Assembly: GCA_017623155.1 (NCBI GenBank)
Contig: JAGAPR010000095.1
Location: forward strand, 1-53,419
Direction of reading: 5' to 3'
Source of the DNA: Prevotella sp.
Lineage (GTDB): Bacteria; Bacteroidota; Bacteroidia; Bacteroidales; Bacteroidaceae
DNA: 53,419 bases
Position numbers and translations under genes: made by a program. Shown piece by piece: positions 1-15,158 of the stretch; position 1 is the first letter of the stretch; every line of letters starts with the position of its first letter. The notes below the pieces were generated by a model. That model was not told the origin of the DNA and ran no database searches. It was given only the letters and a program-made list of their open reading frames with translations.

Positions 1-162
1 GCCACAATTTCCATCAAAGACATATATAATAATGTTATCCATGAAACAGTGGAAAACATTGGGAATGCCCCAAAACAAATTTCTCTTCCCGATGATGTGG
101 ACGAAGAAAAAGCTACAATCGAAATCATCACGGACGAAAAAACATTTAAAGGAAAGTTTTGA
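1..162 (+). CDS. C-terminal end of a DUF3244-like secreted protein (partial)
   Basis: An open frame enters from the left edge and stops at TGA 160-162, giving 53 residues. They alternate beta-strand and turn in the pattern SIKD..NNVIHETVENIG, then a Pro-Asp-Asp turn and a final strand ending KTFKGKF. This resembles the C-terminal half of DUF3244, small secreted beta-sandwich proteins of Bacteroidales, in which the last strands read as 'V.I.D..G.V.....' repeats. The gene lies 30 nt before the outer-membrane barrel gene on the same strand, so it is probably the upstream cistron of that operon. The N-terminus, with any signal peptide or leader, is outside the window. Family assignment is from pattern only and uncertain. 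Confidence 0.5.
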   Translation, partial: ATISIKDIYNNVIHETVENIGNAPKQISLPDDVDEEKATIEIITDEKTFKGKF

Positions 163-192
163 GATTGATAGAAATAAGAGGGCAACCTTTTA

Positions 193-2529
193 ATGCCGCA
201 AACGAAAGAATATCTTATGAAATTTATTCTATCCTTTTTTCTCATCTTTGTCGCTTACCCGTTGAAAGGTAACAACGTACAACTTATAACAGGTAATCTT
301 ACAGACAATGAAAAAAACATCCTTGTAAGTGTCACCATACGCTGTTTTGTTGATGACTCCACCTTTGTGAAAGGCACAACAACAAACTCTAAGGGTGAAT
401 TCAAACTGGAAGTACCACAAACGAACAAGGTACAACGACTCGTTTTCAGCTATCTCGGCTACAAAGAACTGGTGATGAGCATTCAACCGACCGAAGAGAC
501 ATCCATACGCTTGGGCGACGTTGTGATGAAGAAGGATATCATGCAGATACACGAAGTTGTTGTACTCGGTGAAAGCAGGGTACGAACAGAAGACAAATTG
601 ATGGTATATCCCACCAAAGAGGAACTTCGCCATGCCTATGATGGTTACAGCGCATTAGACGCATTGATGGTGCCGGAATTGAACGTGAATACTTCCGACC
701 ACTCCATCAGCTATATGAATCAGGCAGTGTTACTTTGCATCAACGGACGTGAAGCCACACAAGACGAGGTGCGCGATCTCGATGCCAAGTACATCAAACG
801 GGTTGACCTTTATCCTATGGGTAAGCCGGAGTACCCACAGGCAGGTACGATAATTGACTATATCATGAAAGAACGCGACTACGCCGGCACTGTGGGAATC
901 AATGCCAACCATTATTTTACACGCTTAGAGGGAGACAGCCGTGTAAACACACAATACTTTCAAGATAAGTCGGAATTCGCTTTGTCATTGTCCGGCCGCT
1001 ATAAAAACACAGACTTCCATAATAAGGGGCAGACCGTCACCACTTATAATTTCCCCAATGAGTCAGTAACAAGGATTGATCGTTTTATGCCTACCGATGA
1101 TAATTCGCATCGTTTGAATGGTTACTTAAATTACATCTATCGTAACAAATTACAAAGCTTTTATGTCTCATTACGTTTAAACCAAAGCGGCTCAGAGACA
1201 GACAGTTGGAACAGCTTGCAATACAACACGACCCCGTCTTTGCTTGTCAAGCAAGAGCAAATACAATCCAACAGCCTTAACCCTTGTTTGAAATTACAAT
1301 ACACCGGCACAATGCCCCATAACCAACGTTTGCGTATCGAACTTTATGGTAGTTATGGAGACAACGATTATGACCGATGGTATGAACATCGTGAAGATGA
1401 AGACATTACAGACACATATCGCAATAGAACCGATGAGAAAAGCTATTATGCCAGTGGAAAGATTAATTATACCAAAACATTCAAGAACAGATCTTCGCTG
1501 AATATAGACCTCGGGCAGGATTTGACGCATACAGACAATCTGAATCTACGTGGTGAGAACACCTATGATGTATCGCTTGACAAAAGCAATACCCGTTTGA
1601 ATGTGACCTATAACTACCGTATCAAAAATCGCTTTAACATACAAGCAAGGATTGCCGGCCATATATCATACGTAGAAACAGGGAATAATTCAACCACTAA
1701 TGTGTTCTTTACTCCTTCCGTTCGTTTTTCTTATACATACAAAAAGCATTCGTTCTCTTTGCGCGGACAAGCTACCAGTGTAGAAGCCAGCAATGCCAAT
1801 CGCACAGGAGACGAATACAGGTACAATGAATATGAAATCATACAAGGCAATCCGGAATTGAAAGATTATATGAATTACGACCTACTTTTCACACACACGT
1901 GGAACATCAACAAGCGGTTTACATGGATGACATATGCCACATTTTATCTGAACACAAACATGATTTACCGAAAATGTGAATACGACGAAATACGTAATTC
2001 ACTGCTCTGGAAAGTGCAGAACAGTGGAACTAACTGGCAACAGCATTACGAAGCTGCCATCCAATACAACATACTCCCCAAGCGTTTGTATATTCGCACC
2101 GGGTTGCTCTATAACTATGATAAAGTGAACGTATGGAAAACTCTATATCATCACTCGCTTTACGCTATGGGGCACGTTGTTTATCAGCATAAAGGCTGGA
2201 GAGCTCGCATTGGCTTTTTGACTCAACCCGAAACTATCAATAATCAAACCGGCCGAATATATCAAGCACAAGTCAATATCGACATGAGTGCATCATATAG
2301 CGTTGACAATTGGAATTTCCGAATTTCATATAACAATCCGTATAAAAGAGAATTGCGTGAGAATATTGATTTAGGAATATATAAACAGTCTGTGGTCACC
2401 CGCATACCTTATCTATATGATAATATAGGAAGAATAAGTATAAGCTACCGCTTCAACTACGGCAAGAAGAAACATAAGTTTGACAATACCGAAGTGATAG
2501 ACATCAACCAGACAACCATTTCAAAATAA
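193..2529 (+). CDS. Outer-membrane beta-barrel protein with carboxypeptidase-regulatory-like N-domain (TonB-receptor-like)
   Basis: A 778-residue protein predicted to sit in the outer membrane. A hydrophobic signal peptide begins at the internal Met at nt 217 (MKFILSFFLIFVAYPLKG), so 217 may be the true start; ATG 193 is preceded by AGAGGG about 11 nt upstream. Residues about 30-115 form a CarboxypepD_reg-like beta-sandwich ending in EVVVLGE, residues about 125-230 a short plug-like domain, and the rest is a long run of Tyr/Asn-rich amphipathic strands typical of the OMP_b-brl_3 group of large barrels. No SusD-like partner is adjacent, so it is not an ordinary glycan-uptake pair. Only 5 nt separate it from the M50 gene, which points to one transcript. 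Role inferred: export or uptake of the substrate handled by the rest of the locus. Confidence 0.75.
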   Translation: MPQTKEYLMKFILSFFLIFVAYPLKGNNVQLITGNLTDNEKNILVSVTIRCFVDDSTFVKGTTTNSKGEFKLEVPQTNKVQRLVFSYLGYKELVMSIQPTEETSIRLGDVVMKKDIMQIHEVVVLGESRVRTEDKLMVYPTKEELRHAYDGYSALDALMVPELNVNTSDHSISYMNQAVLLCINGREATQDEVRDLDAKYIKRVDLYPMGKPEYPQAGTIIDYIMKERDYAGTVGINANHYFTRLEGDSRVNTQYFQDKSEFALSLSGRYKNTDFHNKGQTVTTYNFPNESVTRIDRFMPTDDNSHRLNGYLNYIYRNKLQSFYVSLRLNQSGSETDSWNSLQYNTTPSLLVKQEQIQSNSLNPCLKLQYTGTMPHNQRLRIELYGSYGDNDYDRWYEHREDEDITDTYRNRTDEKSYYASGKINYTKTFKNRSSLNIDLGQDLTHTDNLNLRGENTYDVSLDKSNTRLNVTYNYRIKNRFNIQARIAGHISYVETGNNSTTNVFFTPSVRFSYTYKKHSFSLRGQATSVEASNANRTGDEYRYNEYEIIQGNPELKDYMNYDLLFTHTWNINKRFTWMTYATFYLNTNMIYRKCEYDEIRNSLLWKVQNSGTNWQQHYEAAIQYNILPKRLYIRTGLLYNYDKVNVWKTLYHHSLYAMGHVVYQHKGWRARIGFLTQPETINNQTGRIYQAQVNIDMSASYSVDNWNFRISYNNPYKRELRENIDLGIYKQSVVTRIPYLYDNIGRISISYRFNYGKKKHKFDNTEVIDINQTTISK

Positions 2530-2534
2530 AAATT

Positions 2535-3734
2535 ATGGACTTACAACAACTAACCGTTCACCCGTTTCCCACTGCTTCCAAACATGAGACTTTTTTATTG
2601 GAAGCGGATGGACGTTTTTTTGAAATAGGCAAAGATACGGCGGAACTCCTCAAATATCTACAAAAGAACGGTGTGGAGCAGGAGAATATTAGACGCTATG
2701 TTGAGGAACACGACGGAAAACCTAAAAAAGAAGAAATAGAAAACTTCTTGGTTACTTTTGAAAAACGACTCGATGCTAACGAAAATAGCAATGGCAACCG
2801 TAAAAAATCATTTCTCTATCACAAAGATTTCATTTCTGCAACAATGTTAGGGCGGTACTCAAACATACTGAAACATCTATTCTTTCCAGAGGTGATAGGA
2901 ATAGTAGTGAGCGTATTTGTGGGACTTGAAGCAGCTTACTTTCTTTATTTCCGCAATATATTGGAGCATACACCAATAAACGTTTATCTTATAGCTGGAC
3001 TATATCTTTTTTTAGCTTTTTCTTCTCTAATACATGAGTTCGGTCATGCAGCAGCATGTAAATACTATAATCTGCCGCATGGGAACATCGGATTTGGGTT
3101 GTATCTAAATCTCCCAGTGTTCTATACTGATGTTACACATGTGTGGAAACTCTCTTGTAAACAACGTTGTATTGTTAATTTTGGGGGTGTCTATTTCCAA
3201 ATGATTCTACTAATTCCACTAATTACAATTGCCATCATCGAAGAAAATGGTATATTAGATTATATGATTCTACTAATGAACTTCAATTTTGCTCTTACAT
3301 TTAACCCTTTCTTCAAATTCGACGGTTATTGGATGATGACAGACTTATTAGGCATCCCCAACTTACGCAAAAAAGGTAATGAATGGATGAAATATTTATT
3401 CGACAAAGTACGTGGTATAAAAAGAACGGAACATCCATACTTTCTTTCATTAGCACCTTGGGCAAAATGGGGATTGGTGGGCTATACTATAGTGGTGAAC
3501 CTTTTTTTCTTCTTCTACTTCTTCTATGTAATTCCACGGTTCTTCATTCATTTTTACCAAGCATTCCCCGAACGTTTCCAACAATTGATGACGGAATTAT
3601 CATACCAACAGATGCCATCGTGGGGCAATTTACAGCAGATTATCTTGCAATTGCTGTTCTTTTTTCTGTTTCTATATATGACCTATAAAATGGTATTACC
3701 CCTAATACGAAAATTGCGATGGGCAAAGGTTTGA
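2535..3734 (+). CDS. PqqD-like domain fused to an M50 (site-2-protease-like) membrane metallopeptidase
   Basis: 399 residues. Residues about 1-85 look like a PqqD/RRE-type winged-helix fold (GRFFEIGKDTAELLKYL, then a helix), a domain that binds leader peptides in RiPP pathways. A multi-spanning membrane region follows with the zinc motif HEFGH at 167-171 and the second M50 motif NPFFKFDGYW with N257, P258, D263 and G264. This layout matches the peptide zinc-metalloprotease-like proteins found in bacterial peptide-maturation clusters (YydH-like), rather than housekeeping RseP, which carries PDZ domains absent here. It starts 5 nt after the barrel gene and its last 16 nt overlap the O-antigen-ligase-like gene, so the two are probably translationally coupled. 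Substrate unknown; no modifying radical SAM enzyme or obvious precursor peptide is inside the window. Confidence 0.8.
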   Translation: MDLQQLTVHPFPTASKHETFLLEADGRFFEIGKDTAELLKYLQKNGVEQENIRRYVEEHDGKPKKEEIENFLVTFEKRLDANENSNGNRKKSFLYHKDFISATMLGRYSNILKHLFFPEVIGIVVSVFVGLEAAYFLYFRNILEHTPINVYLIAGLYLFLAFSSLIHEFGHAAACKYYNLPHGNIGFGLYLNLPVFYTDVTHVWKLSCKQRCIVNFGGVYFQMILLIPLITIAIIEENGILDYMILLMNFNFALTFNPFFKFDGYWMMTDLLGIPNLRKKGNEWMKYLFDKVRGIKRTEHPYFLSLAPWAKWGLVGYTIVVNLFFFFYFFYVIPRFFIHFYQAFPERFQQLMTELSYQQMPSWGNLQQIILQLLFFFLFLYMTYKMVLPLIRKLRWAKV

Positions 3735-5701
3735 ATACATGCATCTGTGTACTTTGGATTATAACTTACCTAATGCACTTCTTCCATGTACCAGATCCCA
3801 AACTGCTATTTGCTATCCCTTTAGCAGTTTGTCTGACAGTTTGTCTGTGGAAATCACCTATACGACTTACCTTTATCGACATTACTTTACTTATGCTTTG
3901 GGGATATGGCCTTTGCTCTCCCTCTGTCAATTGTACAAGTTCTTTGATAAATAACACCCATATGGCTGTCAGTCTGTTGTCATATTTTCTTGTAAGATAC
4001 CTCTTCTTACAAAAGAGTGAGGGAACAAACTGGTTATGTGGAGCACTGACAATGTGTATTGCTGTACTTTCTTTGTTAGCCCTCTATCAGTTTGCTATTT
4101 TCGATAGTCGTATGCATGAGGTTGGTTTTGCTTCACTTTACGATTTTAGATATCTATTTCGTCCTTTAGGAATTCCTTCCAATGAATGGAATGCCCTACA
4201 ATGGCTGTGGGGCGGGGTTGTGACGGTAACTTACATGCAAACTACAGAAAGAAGAATAAAGGGATTATGTTTGTTGTCCGGACTAATGGTATGGGCTACC
4301 ATCTTATTATCTTTCTCACGTGGAGGATATATAGCGATGTTAGTTTGTGGAATATTGCTTTGTAGCCATTGGTTTATAAAAAATAAATCCACATCATCTG
4401 TATCTGAGAATTCTTTATTGCAAAAATTGTTTATAGGAACTTGCTTTACAATAGTTACAGTGTTTCTTGGTTGGCAATATAGGGCAGAGATAATACAGAC
4501 GTTCCACACAAACGAAACAATTTCACAAAAGCGTAGTATTGCCGGACGGTTGGAAACTCTATACTTAGCCAAAGAAGTCTTAAATCACAATCCGTGGGGA
4601 GTCGGCACAGGAAACTATACCATCGCAAACGATTTTTATAGACATGGTGAAGCTCGAAACGATGGTTTTACATCTTATGCCGGTAATATTGTGGCAAAGA
4701 CTTTGATTGAGGGAGGGTATATCGGGATAATTATTTATGGATTGGTAGTTATTTCGGTGGGCGTGCGATTCGTCCGTAACAAAAGCCGGATACATAACTA
4801 TTGGGTGGTGTTCCCGTTCTTGCTTGGCTTCCTTATCAAGGAAACCACATTCCCAACTTTTTATGATTCTAACATCATCCAACTATCAATATTTATACTG
4901 TTAGCATTTATCCAACAAGATGGTGAAAGAGTAGAAAAATCAAAATATTGGAGAATTATGGCTTTCACACCGATATTTGTTTGGATAGGATTATTCTTTG
5001 GCAGGCAAAACCACAACAGTACAAACAGTACCCCCTCACTGATTCAGGAATATCAGAAAAATCATTCTATAAATGCTTTGGATAAAGCTTTGTTTAAAAG
5101 TCCTATGGATATACAACTACATTATTACAAAGCAATAGAAAAAAGTGACACAATTAAACTTGCAGAATTATCCTCTGATTATCCCGACAGGATCCAGTTC
5201 CGCTGGACCCTCTATGAATGGTATAGAAAAAGCGGACAGACTGACAAAGCAGTAAAAGAACTGGCACACTGTATCCTACGCTATCCGCGTCTGTTGGAAA
5301 CGACCTACTGGCAGGAACTATGGCTGAAAGATTACAAGATTGCAAGTAATGTTCAAAGGTTATTAAATATAGCTGTTCAAACAACACCGGACGATGTAAT
5401 GCAGTTTGCAAAAAATGGTAGCGTCGCTCTACAATTAGGTAATATTCAGTTGGCAGAGAAATATCTAATACAGGCAAAACTTATGCTCCCCAATCTCTCT
5501 CGTGTTTGGGGAAATCTCGCTGTCATCGAAGCAGACAAAGGTAATACGGAAAAAGCAAACCTATACCGTAAACGTATGCATATATTGGAGCAAGGAATAT
5601 TCATCAAAGATAGTTGTACTCCTAATGAAAAACAAGATATAAAGACGATATTGGAACAAAAATATCAATTCCTATTCATGATGTGGTATAAAACAAATTA
5701 A
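3719..5701 (+). CDS. O-antigen ligase/polymerase-like membrane protein with C-terminal TPR domain
   Basis: 660 residues. Residues 1-430 are polytopic (about 10-12 hydrophobic segments) and carry hallmarks of the Wzy_C/WaaL superfamily: SFSRGGYI around R201 and the periplasmic-loop pattern GRLETL...NPWGVGTGNY at 276-300. Residues about 440-650 are soluble and helical with TPR-like repeats (e.g. ALQLGNIQLAEKYLIQA and WGNLAVIEADKGNTEKA). The fold joins an undecaprenyl-linked glycan to another glycan, lipid or protein, and in protein O-oligosaccharyltransferases (PglL type) the acceptor is a protein. Its position between an M50 protease and a transglutaminase-like lipoprotein, with no glycosyltransferases nearby, favours a protein or peptide acceptor over LPS assembly; this is inference. 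It overlaps the preceding gene by 16 nt. Confidence 0.75.
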   Translation: MGKGLNTCICVLWIITYLMHFFHVPDPKLLFAIPLAVCLTVCLWKSPIRLTFIDITLLMLWGYGLCSPSVNCTSSLINNTHMAVSLLSYFLVRYLFLQKSEGTNWLCGALTMCIAVLSLLALYQFAIFDSRMHEVGFASLYDFRYLFRPLGIPSNEWNALQWLWGGVVTVTYMQTTERRIKGLCLLSGLMVWATILLSFSRGGYIAMLVCGILLCSHWFIKNKSTSSVSENSLLQKLFIGTCFTIVTVFLGWQYRAEIIQTFHTNETISQKRSIAGRLETLYLAKEVLNHNPWGVGTGNYTIANDFYRHGEARNDGFTSYAGNIVAKTLIEGGYIGIIIYGLVVISVGVRFVRNKSRIHNYWVVFPFLLGFLIKETTFPTFYDSNIIQLSIFILLAFIQQDGERVEKSKYWRIMAFTPIFVWIGLFFGRQNHNSTNSTPSLIQEYQKNHSINALDKALFKSPMDIQLHYYKAIEKSDTIKLAELSSDYPDRIQFRWTLYEWYRKSGQTDKAVKELAHCILRYPRLLETTYWQELWLKDYKIASNVQRLLNIAVQTTPDDVMQFAKNGSVALQLGNIQLAEKYLIQAKLMLPNLSRVWGNLAVIEADKGNTEKANLYRKRMHILEQGIFIKDSCTPNEKQDIKTILEQKYQFLFMMWYKTN

Positions 5702-5709
5702 ATATAACA

Positions 5710-7667
5710 ATGAGAAAGATACATTTCATTATTGCAACTACAGTCATACTGACAACTGTTTCGTGTGACGGACGTTTAGCCAACGTTTTGGAAGAATCAG
5801 GGAAAAACCGTGGAGAGCTTGTAGAAGTCCTCGAATATTACAAAAATGATACTCTAAAACGGGAAGCAGCAATGTTTCTGATAGAGAATATGAGTGGTAA
5901 GTATTTTTACACGGGAGAATTGATAGACAAGTACGATACATTGTTTAGTATTTACGATTCACTGCACAAAAGTGGTAATCATGCACACAATCCTCCTGTC
6001 ATTCGTCGAGCCATGAAAAAATTGCAGGAACAATACGGTTCATTGGAGCCGCATAGACTGACATTAAACAAAGATTGCCGTTATTTGTCAAGTGAATATT
6101 TGATACAGAATATTGATTGGGCTGTGAAAGCTTGGCAGACAAACCCTTTGTTGAGGCTATTAGATTTCTCTACATTCTGTGAATATATCCTCCCATATCG
6201 TGCAGGACGGGAATATCCCGATGTATATCGGGAGCGGTTCTATAACGAATTCCATGTCCTGCGCGTACTTGTGCAAACGACACTACCGCACTGTTAAAGG
6301 CTTTCCGACAGGCCATCTACACCGATCGATATTTTGGTCAGAGCCAGACTATGTGGCAATATAGCATCGATCCTTCTGTCAATCAGATGATACGTGGACG
6401 GAAAGGTTCGTGTGATCATACGTGTAACCTTTACACATGGATAATGCGCTCATGTGGTATACCAATAGCCATTGATTACGTTATGAATTGGGGCAACCGT
6501 GGTATGGGACATTCATGGAATGTATTGATTTTGGAGAATGGACGAACTTTTCCTTTCGACCCATTTACAGAGAAAAAGGCTACTCTTAAATACAAACCTG
6601 CCAAAATATTCAGACGGATGTATTCCACCAATTGGTTACCAGATGATGTACCTACCCATAAAGATGTGCCAGCCTATCTGATTTCTCCAAGCTCAAAAGA
6701 TGTAACTCATGAATATGTACCGACGTTTGATGTAAAGTTGAAATGTGACTATATACCAATTCAAAAAAGCATCCGATATGCAGTAATCTGTACATTTGGC
6801 GACAAAGCATGGCAACCAATATATTGGGGTACAATAAATAATGAAATAGTAAATTTCAAAAATATGGCTGCTGATGTTTGCTATATGGCTGCATATTACC
6901 ATCAAGGGGAACTTACCCCTTTGACTAAACCATTCATTCTAACAAAAGAAGGTGAAATTAAAAAAATTGGGGAAAATCTTTCTGTGAAAGGATCCATAAC
7001 TGTCAATCGTAAATATCCGAGATTTCAACGCATGGACATATTGGCACGCAAATTGATGAGAACAACTATAGAAGCAGCTAATAACAAAGAATTCAGAAAT
7101 GCTGACACATTGATGGAAATAAATAATGTACCTACAGATGTTAATGATTCTATGTTGTCGTGTTCAAGAAAATATCGCTATGTACGTTGCCATATTCCTA
7201 ATTATCGAACTGGCGATTTGGCAGAAATCATTTTCTACGGAAAACAGTCTATGGATTCTCCTGAAATAAGATTGGAAGGAAACATTATCGGTTTTCCTCT
7301 TCCTGACAAAAGAAATACTATGCCGTATTTCATGGCTATGGATGGAGACCCTAATACATATTTTGTCAAGACAAAAGGAAATGATGGATATGTGGGGCTC
7401 GACTTAGGAGTAGATAATAAACACTACATTACACGAGTACAGTTCTATCCACGAAGTGATGCTAACTACATCCTCATTGGCGATACATACGAACTCTGCT
7501 ATTGGCAGAATAAACAATGGATTAGCATAGGTAAACAAACGGCCGTTTCCCATAAACTAACTTTCGACAATGTTCCCCAAAAAGAATTGTACATTCTCCA
7601 TAACCTAACCAGAGGCACAGAAGAACGTCCATTCACTTATGAAAACGGTAAGCAAGTATGGTGGTGA
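5710..7667 (+). pseudogene. Transglutaminase-like lipoprotein with C-terminal discoidin-like domain, split by a frameshift
   Basis: Two frames make one protein. The first (5710-6297) starts with a lipoprotein signal (lipobox TTVSC, Cys at residue 19) and ends at TAA after VLVQTTLPHC. The second is open before its first ATG (6351) and its upstream translation continues naturally from about 6275 as ANDTTALLKAFRQAIY. The switch is to +2, equivalent to loss of one base near 6270-6276. The second part holds a transglutaminase-like core, with C21 (GSCDHTC), H54 (GMGHSW) and D70 (FPFDPF) counted from ATG 6351, then a linker and an F5/8-type galactose-binding-like domain over the last ~150 residues (DGDPNTYF, YVGLDLG, ITRVQFYP). 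Intact length would be about 652 residues. If re-initiated at 6351, a core without lipid anchor could still be made. A sequencing error is possible, although no homopolymer is at the site. Confidence 0.75.
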
Positions 7668-8996: not shown

Positions 8997-9172
8997 CAGT
9001 TAATATTTTGTTATCTCACAGTTAATATTTAATTGCGTCGCAGTTAATATTTAATTATGGCGAAGTTAATATTTAATTGCGACGCAGTTAATATTTAATT
9101 GTATTATAGTTAATATCTCGTTGTCGGGCAATTAATATTTAATTGTCGGATAATTAATAGTTTATTATCGGG
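8997..9172. repeat. Eight tandem 22-bp direct repeats (iteron-like array)
   Basis: Units begin at 8997, 9019, 9041, 9063, 9085, 9107, 9129 and 9151 with no change of pitch. The common core is AGTTAATATTTAATTG (AT-rich), followed by a variable 4-6 nt mostly G/C-containing tail (GCGTCG, ATGGCG, GCGACG, GTATTA, GTCGGG, GTCGGA). The first, sixth and last copies are the most diverged. Contiguity without spacers excludes CRISPR. The constant 22-bp period is about two helical turns. Function unknown; it lies in a non-coding gap between the AT-rich block and the DUF4834 operon. Confidence 0.85.
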
Positions 9173-11441: not shown

Positions 11442-14400
11442 ATGCAAGATTTCGTACACTTACACGTTCACACATATTACTCAATCCTCGACGGACAGGC
11501 GAGCATCCCCAAGCTCGTCGACAAGGCTGTAGCCAACGGTATGCGCGGAATGGCCATCACCGACCATGGCAACATGATGGGCATCAAGGAGTTTTTCAAC
11601 TACTGCAAGGGTGTAAACGGCAAGCGGAAAGACAATGGCGAAGAGCCTTTCAAGCCAATTTTCGGTTGTGAAATGTATGTTACACGCAACGGGCGACGGC
11701 TCACCGACAAGGACAAGGCTGCGGGAGACTCTGGCGGAAATCACCTCGTGGTGCTCGCAAAGAACGAGCAAGGCTACCATAATCTTATCAAATTGGTGTC
11801 GAAAGCATGGACCGACGGCTTCTACGGACGGCCGAGAACCGACCACGTGGAACTGGAAAAGTATCACGAGGGACTCATCGTTTGCTCGGCGTGCATCGCC
11901 GGTGAAGTGCCTGCCAAAATTCTTAACGACGACATCAAGGGTGCCGAAGAGGCCGTGCTGTGGTTTAAAAGAGTGTTCGGCGACGACTATTATCTGGAAT
12001 TGCAGCGTCATGAAGTGAAGCGACCTGACATCAGAGCCAACCGCGAGACATTCCCTTTGCAGCAGAGAGCCAACAAGGCAATAATCGAACTGGCACACAA
12101 GCATGGCGTGAAATTGGTGTGCACGAACGACAGTCACTTCGTGGACGAGGAGAACGCCGAGGCCCACGACCGTCTTCTGTGTCTCTCGACGGGCAAGGAT
12201 CTCGACGACCCGACACGCATGTTGTATACCAAACAGGAATGGTTCAAGACCAAAGAAGAGATGAACGATGTGTTTGCCGACATCCCCGAGGCACTGGCAA
12301 ACACCTGCGAGATACTCGACAAGGTAGAGACATACTCGATAGACCACGACCCTATAATGCCGTTCTTCCCCATTCCAGAAGAATTCGGCACGGAAGAGGA
12401 GTACAGGAAGCGGTTTACCGAGCAGCAACTCTACGACGAATTCACATCGGACGAGAACGGACAAAACCAGCTTCCGCCCGAGGAAGGAGCGAAAAAAATC
12501 AAGAAGCTCGGCGGATACGACCGCATATATCGCATAAAATTTGAGGCCGACTACCTCAGTAAATTGGCCTACGACGGTGCATACAAACTATATGGCAACC
12601 CGCTTTCCGACGAGGTGAAAGAGCGGGTGAACTTCGAGTTGCACATAATGAAGACCATGGGATTTCCCGGTTACTTCCTCATTGTGCAAGACTTCATCAA
12701 CTCCGCACGCGAGGAACTTGGCGTGATGGTGGGTCCCGGGCGTGGCTCGGCTGCCGGAAGCGTGGTGGCCTACTGTCTCGGAATAACCAAAATAGACCCT
12801 ATAAAGTATGACCTTCTGTTCGAACGTTTCCTTAACCCCGACCGAATATCACTGCCGGATATCGATACCGACTTCGATGATGACGGCCGCGGGCGCGTGC
12901 TTGAATGGGTGGAAGACAAATACGGGCACGACAAGGTGGCGCATATCATCACATACGGAACGATGGCCACGAAGAACTCCATCAAGGATGTGGCGCGCGT
13001 TGAGAAACTTCCGCTCGAACGGAGCAAGCAACTCTGTAACTCGATACCGGACAAACTGCCAAACGGACTGAAGATGAATCTCAGCAATGCGATAAGCGTA
13101 ATACCGGAATTAAGGGATGCGGAAGCAAGTGCCAACAAGCTCGAAAGCGAGACAATACGTTATGCCAAGATGCTCGAAGGCACAGTGAGAAACACCGGTA
13201 TACACGCTTGCGGCACCATTATCTGCCGCGATGCCATCAGCGACTGGGTGCCCGTATCGACAGCCGAAGACAAGAGCAACCCCGGACACAAGCTGCTCTG
13301 CACTCAATACGACGGACACGTCATCGAGGAAACAGGCCTTATAAAGATGGACTTCCTCGGTCTTAAAACCTTGTCGCAGCTGAAAGAAGCCGTGGAAAAC
13401 GTGAGATTGACCCACGGTATTACCATAGACCTCGACAATATCCCGATAGACGACGAACTGACATACAAGTTATACTGCGAGGGAAGGACGATAGGAACAT
13501 TCCAATTCGAGTCGGCAGGCATGCAAAAATACCTCCGTGAGCTTCAACCGAGCGTCTTTGAAGACCTGATAGCGATGAATGCACTCTACCGTCCGGGACC
13601 GATGGACTACATTCCGTCGTTCATCGCGCGCAAGAACGGCCGCGAAGAGATTAAATACGATATTCCCTGCATGGAGAAATACCTCAAAGACACTTATGGA
13701 ATAACGGTTTATCAGGAGCAGGTCATGCTTCTTTCAAGGCAGCTTGCCAACTTCACCCGCGGCGAGAGCGACGCTCTGAGAAAGGCGATGGGTAAGAAAA
13801 AGAAAGCCATCGTAGACGCGATGAAGCCCAAATTCATCGAGGGCGGCAAGAAAAACGGCCACGACCCGAAAGTATTGGAGAAGATATGGAGCGACTGGGA
13901 GAAGTTCGCTTCATACGCATTCAACAAAAGTCACGCCACATGCTACTCGTGGGTGGCATACCAGACGGCTTATCTCAAAGCGCACTACCCCGCCGAGTTC
14001 ATGGCCGGAATAATGAGCCGAAGTCTCGACAACATCACCGACATAACCAAATTCATGGACGAATGCCGCGCGATGGGCATACCGACACTCGGCCCCGACG
14101 TGAACGAGAGCCGCCAAAAGTTCAGCGTCAACAAGAAAGGAGAGATAAGATTTGGCATCAGTGCAATCAAAGGCGTGGGCGGAACTGCCGCCGATGCCAT
14201 CATAGACGAACGCGAAAAGAACGGTCCTTACAAGAGTATCTTCGACTTCATACAGCGTGTCAACCTCAGTGCCGTGAACAAAAAAAGCGTCGAGTCGCTC
14301 GTGCTGAGCGGCGGCTTCGACAGCTTCGGTGTACGGCGCGAAGACTTTTTTGCCAAAAATCCGAAAGGCGAAATGTTCTTGGACACGTTTGTACGCTACG

Positions 14401-15158
14401 GACAAACGTACCAAATGGAGAAAGAACAGATACGCAACTCGCTCTTCGGAGGCGACAACGAGGTTGAGATTGCCACCCCGCCGATAATAAAAGGTGAGAC
14501 ATGGAGCGACATCGAGCGCCTCAACAGAGAGCGCGACCTCGTAGGCATTTACATATCGGCGCACCCGCTCGACGAATATAAGATTATTCTCGACAACCTT
14601 TGCAATTCCAAATGCAGCGAGTTATCGGATATTTCGCAGATGCAAAACCGTGACGACATCACCATGGGAGGCATCGTGACGGCGGTGACATCAAAGTTTA
14701 CCAAGACAGGAAAGCCGTGCGGTTTCGTGACGATAGAAGACTTTGAAGGCTCAGGCGAGCTTGCCCTCTTCGGTGAGGAATGGGGCAAATGGAGCGGAAT
14801 GTTCAAGGAAGGATGTGCCATTTACATGACGGCCAAATGCCAGCAACGGTTTCGCGACAGCAAATTTTTCGACCTTCGCATCCAAAACATCGAGTATTTG
14901 CAATCCATCAAGGATAAAGCCATCGACCGTATTACCATATCACTGCTCACCGACGAGCTGAACGAGCAAATCGTCACCGAGCTGAACGAGATAATAAACG
15001 ATAATCCCGGAAGCACAAAACTGTTCTTCCAACTGCACGATTCGAGCGGCAAGAACCATGTGTTGCTACGCAGCGGCAACCGAACGGTGGATGTAAGGCG
15101 CAGCCTCATCAACTATATCGAGCAGAACAATAATGTGCTCGACTACAAGATAAACTGA
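11442..15158 (+). CDS. dnaE: DNA polymerase III subunit alpha
   Basis: 1238 residues, the catalytic chain of the replicative polymerase. An N-terminal PHP domain starts with FVHLHVHTYYSILDG and the Asp/His set ITDHGNM. The polymerase core has GPGRGSAAGS at about 430 and the catalytic LPDIDTDFDDDGRG at about 470, followed by the thumb/fingers region with TVYQEQVM, then tandem helix-hairpin-helix (about 880-950) and an OB-fold (about 1055-1130, GGIVTAVTSKFTKTGKP). Length agrees with the DnaE1 type; there is no exonuclease domain, so it is not PolC. It is monocistronic, divergent from psd, and its stop codon lies inside the terminator stem. Confidence 0.96.
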   Translation: MQDFVHLHVHTYYSILDGQASIPKLVDKAVANGMRGMAITDHGNMMGIKEFFNYCKGVNGKRKDNGEEPFKPIFGCEMYVTRNGRRLTDKDKAAGDSGGNHLVVLAKNEQGYHNLIKLVSKAWTDGFYGRPRTDHVELEKYHEGLIVCSACIAGEVPAKILNDDIKGAEEAVLWFKRVFGDDYYLELQRHEVKRPDIRANRETFPLQQRANKAIIELAHKHGVKLVCTNDSHFVDEENAEAHDRLLCLSTGKDLDDPTRMLYTKQEWFKTKEEMNDVFADIPEALANTCEILDKVETYSIDHDPIMPFFPIPEEFGTEEEYRKRFTEQQLYDEFTSDENGQNQLPPEEGAKKIKKLGGYDRIYRIKFEADYLSKLAYDGAYKLYGNPLSDEVKERVNFELHIMKTMGFPGYFLIVQDFINSAREELGVMVGPGRGSAAGSVVAYCLGITKIDPIKYDLLFERFLNPDRISLPDIDTDFDDDGRGRVLEWVEDKYGHDKVAHIITYGTMATKNSIKDVARVEKLPLERSKQLCNSIPDKLPNGLKMNLSNAISVIPELRDAEASANKLESETIRYAKMLEGTVRNTGIHACGTIICRDAISDWVPVSTAEDKSNPGHKLLCTQYDGHVIEETGLIKMDFLGLKTLSQLKEAVENVRLTHGITIDLDNIPIDDELTYKLYCEGRTIGTFQFESAGMQKYLRELQPSVFEDLIAMNALYRPGPMDYIPSFIARKNGREEIKYDIPCMEKYLKDTYGITVYQEQVMLLSRQLANFTRGESDALRKAMGKKKKAIVDAMKPKFIEGGKKNGHDPKVLEKIWSDWEKFASYAFNKSHATCYSWVAYQTAYLKAHYPAEFMAGIMSRSLDNITDITKFMDECRAMGIPTLGPDVNESRQKFSVNKKGEIRFGISAIKGVGGTAADAIIDEREKNGPYKSIFDFIQRVNLSAVNKKSVESLVLSGGFDSFGVRREDFFAKNPKGEMFLDTFVRYGQTYQMEKEQIRNSLFGGDNEVEIATPPIIKGETWSDIERLNRERDLVGIYISAHPLDEYKIILDNLCNSKCSELSDISQMQNRDDITMGGIVTAVTSKFTKTGKPCGFVTIEDFEGSGELALFGEEWGKWSGMFKEGCAIYMTAKCQQRFRDSKFFDLRIQNIEYLQSIKDKAIDRITISLLTDELNEQIVTELNEIINDNPGSTKLFFQLHDSSGKNHVLLRSGNRTVDVRRSLINYIEQNNNVLDYKIN

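Follow-up and report, generated by a model that had tools for sequence, protein, structure and literature searches.

A Prevotella operon for an RRE-site-2 protease, an O-antigen-ligase-like protein and a transglutaminase-like lipoprotein: most likely the 3' part of a radical SAM peptide locus

Gene content of the locus

In this work we analysed the plus-strand operon found at the very beginning of a Prevotella sp. contig (JAGAPR010000095.1, our C76, assembly GCA_017623155.1). The window is the whole stretch of 53,419 nucleotides; it starts at base 1 of the contig, and the assembly (2.74 Mb) is 84% complete. A sequence-only reading had described five plus-strand genes separated by 30, 5, -16 and 8 nt and had regarded them as an uncharacterised pathway for the maturation of a surface protein. 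The coordinates confirmed the five coding stretches (end at 162; 193-2529; 2535-3734; 3719-5701; from 5710 on) together with their spacings. Since the window begins at the first base of the contig, gene 1 is a stub of 53 residues. The features are the following.

1..162, plus strand: C-terminal stub (53 residues), truncated at the contig edge, of a small protein that is perhaps DUF3244-like (frame read; weak profile match)
193..2529, plus strand: 778-residue outer-membrane barrel with a CarbopepD_reg_2 N-terminal domain and a TonB-dependent-receptor-like fold (Pfam 1.1e-10; model pLDDT 82; Foldseek to Cir, E 1.2e-17, probability 1.00, TM 0.46-0.55)
2535..3734, plus strand: 399-residue protein with an RRE (PqqD-like) domain and a site-2 protease (M50) domain, likely leader peptidase
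3719..5701, plus strand: 660-residue Wzy_C (O-antigen-ligase-like) membrane protein with a C-terminal TPR-like part; its gene shares 16 nt with the M50 gene (Pfam 1.4e-13)
5710..6297, plus strand: N-terminal piece (195 residues) of a transglutaminase-like lipoprotein, broken by a frameshift (transglutaminase profile match, 204 bits)
6351..7667, plus strand: C-terminal piece (438 residues) with the transglutaminase core (Cys, His) and an F5/8 type C-like domain (Pfam Transglut_core 8.1e-6)

The block had also been described as richer in A/T, and indeed its GC content is 37-41% across 1-10 kb versus 44-55% farther along the window. The barrel was likewise rightly described as lacking SusD, for which no match was seen among the 8 window proteins scanned. 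A defence island was considered as well and dropped, as the four window proteins submitted to PADLOC gave no match.

Relatives of the locus

Homologues of the M50 protein were collected from several genome samples: a match was found in 13 of 301 genomes of the family (own genome included), in 8 of 393 genomes of the order by a profile search, and in 9 of 299 genomes of the genus, while the GTDB contig collection gave two loci, one of them in Paraprevotella clara YIT 11840. Fourteen loci with a full-length M50 gene form the core set (the window, L063, L064, L065, L018, L022, L023, L024, L003, L048, L067, L019, L020 and L021). Five weakly matching genomes among the 13 (G270, G009, G055, G060 and G109) were kept out of it; broken copies of the core type occur in G109 (L028) and G772 (L066), L068 is an M50-barrel fusion without the ligase, and L025 is a repeat of L003. 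Some of the loci tallied later had served to build the LIG2, S26, NV, DUF and REG profiles, so the counts obtained with these profiles are partly circular.

The gene neighbourhoods revealed that in most relatives a SPASM radical SAM gene and a gene for a peptide of 62-96 residues (51 in one case) lie upstream of the barrel gene. The closest complete locus, L063, contains in this order a TPR protein (540 residues, with a weak LuxR-type helix-turn-helix match), a DUF3244-like secreted protein, the radical SAM enzyme (447 residues, 5832-7175), the precursor (85 residues, 7200-7457), the barrel, the M50 protein, the ligase and the transglutaminase, the last four being 81%, 79%, 72% and 82-84% identical to their counterparts in the window. 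In the profile tally of the 14 core loci the ligase was present in 13, the transglutaminase in 12 (split in the window), the barrel in 12, the precursor in 10 and the radical SAM enzyme in 10; in L048 the ligase and the radical SAM enzyme are each in two pieces, and L067 has only 3' pieces of the latter at a contig end. This recurrence exceeds chance. The genes are thus kept together elsewhere, and the leader-bearing short reading frames and radical SAM genes that the sequence-only reading had proposed to look for upstream are present in the relatives, with ABC (ATP-binding cassette) exporter genes in two loci (L003 and L048). In these two the barrel is missing and an ABC ATPase, two permeases, a TolC-like protein and a membrane-fusion protein are found instead (in L003, four of these five proteins have Pfam matches). 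The L003 ATPase matched ABC_tran and the single permease scanned matched MacB_PCD/FtsX, the scan for C39 being limited to L003; L048 belongs to another taxonomic family. Base composition was compared with a mobile element in mind: the GC content is below that of the rest of the fetched region in 10 of 12 loci (not in L018 and L021), with a gap of at most 2 points in L019, L048 and L064.

The loci without radical SAM and precursor genes fall into different situations. The window and L020 start at a contig edge, the L021 locus lacks both genes and has them on another contig of the same genome (L047), and L019 is a true exception. Assemblies break near this part of the locus in four cases (window 1, L020 1, L067 15567, L065 14406). 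In L067 the precursor and the barrel stand in tandem copy, so repeats there may break assemblies.

Across the family sample the radical SAM enzyme of this clade (E<=1e-40) was found in 5 of 301 genomes, all of them among the 8 genomes with a strong M50 match (E<1e-60, a cut set after the list had been seen) and in none of the 293 others (Fisher p 2.8e-9; 6.5e-8 with all 13 M50 genomes). The M50 and radical SAM searches were taken to cover the same 301 genomes, as handles and sizes agree. In the order sample a single genome besides the window's own, G556, had a strong M50 match (418 bits, next 209), and it was also the sole one with a clade-like radical SAM enzyme (547 bits, next 231); 53 of the 393 genomes pass E<=1e-40 for radical SAM, the others being other SPASM enzymes, and G556 was singled out post hoc on the scores.

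Precursor peptides and the radical SAM enzyme

A short precursor with a conserved leader and a variable core is located beside the maturase in 10 of the 14 core loci. The alignment of 13 precursors showed the leader S-[LIV]-N ... LExR[LM]ETDP, with S10, N12, L23, E24, R26, E28, T29, D30 and P31 (L063 numbering) shared. Two to seven cysteines follow the ETDP motif in 12 of the 13, the exception being the precursor of L047 (1056-1211), which combines the conserved leader with a short core free of cysteine. In L063 and L064 the cysteines recur at intervals of exactly 7 and in L065 of exactly 4, and their regularity was equalled by 2, 44 and 5 of 100,000 shuffles, respectively, in a run restricted to these three precursors, which were picked for visible regularity. 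No model was matched over its cut-off by the 7 precursors scanned against NCBIfam or the 4 scanned against Pfam.

In the radical SAM enzyme C109, C113, C116 and seven further cysteines are invariant (9 aligned rows), and TIGR04085 (SPASM) was above its cut-off in both enzymes scanned. The L063 enzyme also matches viperin models of PADLOC at 65 bits, which we read as shared superfamily. When the L018 and L003 enzymes were compared with NCBIfam, the best matches included maturases of Cys-rich peptides (TIGR04463, CefB NF038107, PapB NF047865), whose substrates resemble the present ones in their Cys-bearing, sometimes regularly spaced cores; all of these matches, however, are far below the equivalog cut-offs (149.6/525, 125.4/600 and 101.4/340 for L018). 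The enzyme probably forms Cys thioether cross-links in the core.

From these data we are highly confident that the locus type is that of a radical SAM RiPP (ribosomal, modified peptide), and the window is most likely the 3' part of such a locus. It weighs against this assignment that the upstream radical SAM and precursor genes were not found in the window's own assembly: only scraps of the former were seen (E 0.02 and 0.2, contig C8), no precursor matched at E<=1, and neither gene was found among the 670 open reading frames of the window itself, whose contig ends there. Since both are missing from window and assembly, the RiPP reading rests on the relatives, and the window by itself would be insufficient. 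The same absence would be expected of a decaying remnant that had lost both genes and carries a dead transglutaminase; the frameshift in the transglutaminase gene, the broken relatives L028 and L066, and the stub of a different gene sitting at the position of the L063 precursor all agree with decay. On the other hand, the barrel, the M50 protein and the ligase are full length with conserved motifs, the contig ends where the missing genes could lie, the assembly is incomplete, and single-base errors are common in such assemblies. We consider decay unlikely, albeit worth serious attention.

The RRE-protease

The sequence-only reading had recognized an intramembrane protease with an attached leader-binding domain, and this was upheld: the M50 protein consists of an RRE/PqqD-like domain and an M50 protease of the site-2 type. 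Its model gave no Foldseek match at E<=0.001, and VIA-align returned RRE and site-2 protease matches with middling Z, so the assignment of the fold also leans on the motifs and on an NCBIfam match. H167, E168, H171 and D263 are invariant in 17 aligned rows, and the daptide model NF041824 (daptide_HExxH) was matched at 93.7 bits, below its cut-off of 300. According to the available text on the daptides (PMC10036551), MpaP is an intramembrane site-2 protease that carries a fused RRE at its N-terminus and removes the leader. The domain combination is the same here, and the leader LExR[LM]ETDP recalls ELExMEAP of the daptides as given there. Unlike the daptides, in which that text describes the C-terminal Thr as invariant, none of the 13 precursors ends with Thr, and the present loci have Cys-bearing cores, a radical SAM enzyme and genes of a Gram-negative envelope. 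Because of the fold, the motifs and the daptide precedent, binding and cleavage of the leader by the M50 protein is proposed, and by this analogy we judge it very probable that the protein is the leader protease.

The DUF3244-like protein

Gene 1 had been taken for DUF3244-like and its product suggested as the substrate of the pathway. What stands of the first claim is a weak likeness: the stub has no Pfam match, it scored 8.2 bits when run alone against the profile of the neighbours' DUF3244-like proteins, and this profile found no match at E<=0.01 among all window reading frames. DUF3244-like genes precede 5 of the 14 core loci (the profile was made from the same five) and perhaps also the barrel of the window, and on these grounds a general protein-maturation system with the DUF3244-like secreted protein as substrate might be envisaged. 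Against such a system, the gene was not found in the other 8 relatives, both ABC-type loci included (L020, L065 and L067 end at a contig edge there), and the proteins, judged by eye, seem to carry a signal peptide of the usual kind and to lack the leader motif. With a RiPP indicated both by the RRE and by the co-occurrence of the precursor, the substrate is probably the RiPP, and a DUF3244-like substrate appears barely tenable.

The ligase-like Wzy_C protein

Of the domains noted for the O-antigen-ligase-like protein with TPRs, the Wzy_C match of the window protein (51.4 bits) exceeds the Pfam cut-off of 31.7, and the TPR matches are under their cut-offs. The gene is directly 3' of the M50 gene in 13 of the 14 core loci; the two frames overlap by 4-29 nt in 8 loci and are separated by 7 and 14 nt in two, and the start is ambiguous in three. 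In the ligase tree the M50-type and NVEALA-type proteins (described below) are fully separated, the former in a clade of their own with 100/100 support (0 of 500 shuffles).

Residues R215, R288 and H338 are important in the E. coli O-antigen ligase WaaL and kept in PglL, according to the available text of PMC3643930. The present proteins share with these enzymes the Wzy_C domain and the two arginines and differ from them in the histidine and in the C-terminal TPR-like part. In the MAFFT alignment all 29 relatives have the equivalent of Arg288, 28 of them that of Arg215 and none that of His338; all 13 M50-type ligases have both arginines and Gly or Pro at the histidine position (Gly in the window protein). 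Since hhalign of the M50-type ligases against WaaL was weak (probability 0.5, E 0.12), the residues were compared on the basis of the MAFFT alignment in the region of the Wzy_C motifs. The absence of a His338 equivalent from all 29 relatives makes ordinary O-antigen ligation unlikely, so the earlier suggestion that the protein transfers lipid-linked glycans was weakened. The other Wzy_C protein of the same genome (contig C89) likewise has no His at this position and is without an R288 equivalent as well; the loss of the His is thus a departure from WaaL/PglL and not by itself new chemistry. The ligase fold may still bind a polyprenyl-pyrophosphate donor, the acceptor being activated by other means.

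These results bear on the possibility of an operon for surface-glycan or lipopolysaccharide maturation, where the Wzy_C protein would ligate or polymerise a glycan and the rest would be accessory. The Wzy_C domain above its cut-off, the two arginines conserved throughout the M50-type proteins, and the contig C89 protein, according to which the loss of His does not by itself exclude glycan work, could be accommodated by such an operon. Nevertheless, the missing histidine, the contig C89 gene as the likelier glycan polymerase (by eye it adjoins a glycosyltransferase-like gene) and the recurrence of the genes with precursors and radical SAM enzymes make a glycan operon very improbable.

The transglutaminase-like lipoprotein and the NVEALA loci

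The transglutaminase-like lipoprotein was recognized by the sequence-only reading, and Transglut_core and the lipobox-like N-terminus ending with TVSC (by eye) agree with it, whereas the gene is split here by a frameshift, its two parts being in different frames; L063 has it in one frame of 652 residues (13019-14977). Transglut_core passes its cut-off for the window and L063 and is not listed for L003, and the F5_F8_type_C match (3.1e-4, 21.3 bits) is under its cut-off of 28.2. C235 and H268 are invariant in 11 aligned rows, where no invariant Asp is listed within 30 residues after the His. Another member of the family is situated on contig C52 of the same genome, in two overlapping frames (L106, 8030-9995).

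The family is present in 110 of the 301 family genomes (E<=1e-20). Twenty further loci were picked by hand, mostly high-scoring ones outside the M50 loci (the regions of L092, L106 and L108 are short). They contain a Wzy_C-type ligase in 17 cases, an NVEALA-type peptide (PF14055) in 13 (one weak) and a signal peptidase S26 in 10, with no M50 and no ETDP-type precursor at the thresholds used; 10 of their proteins were checked with Pfam. The NVEALA loci resemble the present one in that the ligase/transglutaminase pair stands beside small peptides containing Cys, accompanied in 10 of 20 loci by a membrane protease. They differ in the signal-peptide-like N-terminus of the peptide (by eye), in S26 in place of the RRE-M50 protein, in the lack of this clade's radical SAM enzyme and in the separate clade of their ligases. 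NVEALA-type peptide and S26 profiles found no match in the window reading frames, and the upstream part of the locus lies outside the window.

The transglutaminase tree does not split by system: its well-supported branches require no fewer than 6 changes of system. In the first tree L092, L093, L101, L102, L108 and L110 were labelled NVEALA-type though unclear; the repeat count without these six gave 4 changes, and a single M50-type clade was rejected (p-AU 8.7e-31), the long branches calling for caution. L105, L106 and L107 were left out of these trees. As the ligase tree splits by system and the transglutaminase tree does not, we read the ligase as staying with its peptide system and the transglutaminase as traded between systems.

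The NVEALA loci are also relevant to the idea that the RiPP is an ordinary secreted antimicrobial, from which the M50 protein cuts the leader while ligase and transglutaminase provide producer immunity or envelope protection. RiPPs are often antimicrobial, L023 has the radical SAM enzyme, precursor, barrel and M50 protein without ligase and transglutaminase, and the barrel resembles TonB-dependent receptors, an entry route of bacteriocins (Cir). In opposition to this, the same kind of pair stands beside NVEALA peptides, which means that it accompanies two types of small peptides with Cys; moreover, the ligases of the M50 system form a monophyletic group, and their gene adjoins the M50 gene in 13 of the 14 loci. 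We regard this explanation, with the pair serving immunity or envelope protection, as unlikely.

Proposed pathway

As a whole, a radical SAM RiPP locus with a two-part envelope module is the explanation that we favour, with reasonable though not full confidence. The gene content, its conservation, the folds, the motifs and the phylogenetic pattern are directly supported, and the steps would take place in the following presumed order. The SPASM radical SAM enzyme would modify the precursor, usually in a Cys-bearing core, then the RRE of the M50 protein would bind the leader, which the site-2 protease domain would remove in the inner membrane. The exported peptide could be handled by the envelope module, consisting of a Wzy_C/TPR transferase specific to the peptide system and an exchangeable transglutaminase-like lipoprotein. 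In the simplest case the transferase might join the mature peptide to an envelope moiety, borne on polyprenyl phosphate or of another type, and its trimming or coupling at the cell surface might fall to the transglutaminase-like protein. Outer-membrane passage would be served by the TonB-receptor-like barrel in most loci and by the MacB-type ABC, membrane-fusion and TolC set in two; export, uptake and self-protection are indistinguishable roles for the modelled barrel. That the Wzy_C and transglutaminase-like proteins act on the peptide seems somewhat probable, and covalent attachment is conceivable, if rather doubtful. Of the original idea of a pathway that cleaves, glycosylates and displays a secreted polypeptide, peptide maturation was kept, glycan transfer lost ground, and the probable substrate became the RiPP precursor, a better candidate than the DUF3244-like protein.

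A still more tentative and on the whole improbable extension is a general envelope module of Bacteroidota, in which an M50 or S26 protease, a His-less Wzy_C/TPR transferase and a transglutaminase-like lipoprotein would couple small Cys-rich peptides covalently to a polyprenyl-phosphate-linked or lipid/glycan carrier and display them at the surface. The window would be the RiPP version of it and the NVEALA loci the signal-peptide version.

Like the clusters of the PCAT/GG type, the present loci are radical SAM RiPP loci of Bacteroidales (PMC10352776). The survey in that paper, by its available text, comprises 9 clusters, 7 of them with a C39 peptidase transporter, and its main text does not contain the words O-antigen, M50 or transglutaminase. 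In agreement with the sequence-only reading, we could not find a description of the gene set, that is, of the combination of a RiPP, a leader protease, a ligase-like enzyme and a transglutaminase-like lipoprotein, nor any paper with the word NVEALA; subscription journals were poorly covered in both searches, and absence is not proof. An orphan operon is turned in this way into a testable peptide pathway that connects two little-described kinds of loci, the Cys-bearing radical SAM peptides of gut Bacteroidales and the NVEALA peptides. Action of the ligase-like enzyme on peptides, if true, would represent both a new use of the O-antigen-ligase fold and a new display or tailoring route for ribosomal peptides in Gram-negative commensals.

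Further observations

In L068 (7110-10394, minus strand) the M50 protein and an outer-membrane barrel form one frame of 1094 residues, in which a stretch resembling a signal peptide (by eye) separates the two. More distant M50 relatives occur at L004 9022-11290, L027 8986-10669 and L051 7055-10879; in L004 and L027 short peptides with the motif [VI]ELE[DE]RFE adjoin them, and all three regions contain genes that we take to resemble ketoacyl synthase genes. Short LEDRLE peptides were seen beside M50 genes and large barrel-like genes (by eye) at L049 9120-15338, L069 8715-9980 and L070 8563-14337, and one of these loci has a radical SAM gene of another kind. Peptide systems with an RRE-protease seem to extend beyond this clade within Bacteroidota.

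Possible regulators are encoded near the 5' end of the locus at L018 3249-4949, L024 1587-3308, L063 3256-4878 and L064 14867-16609; these are TPR proteins that contain a membrane segment and weakly match a LuxR-type helix-turn-helix. Downstream of the operon, an AT-rich tandem array at 8997-9171 of the window is built from about 8 units of 22 bases (CAGTTAATATTTAATTG...), 71% alike.

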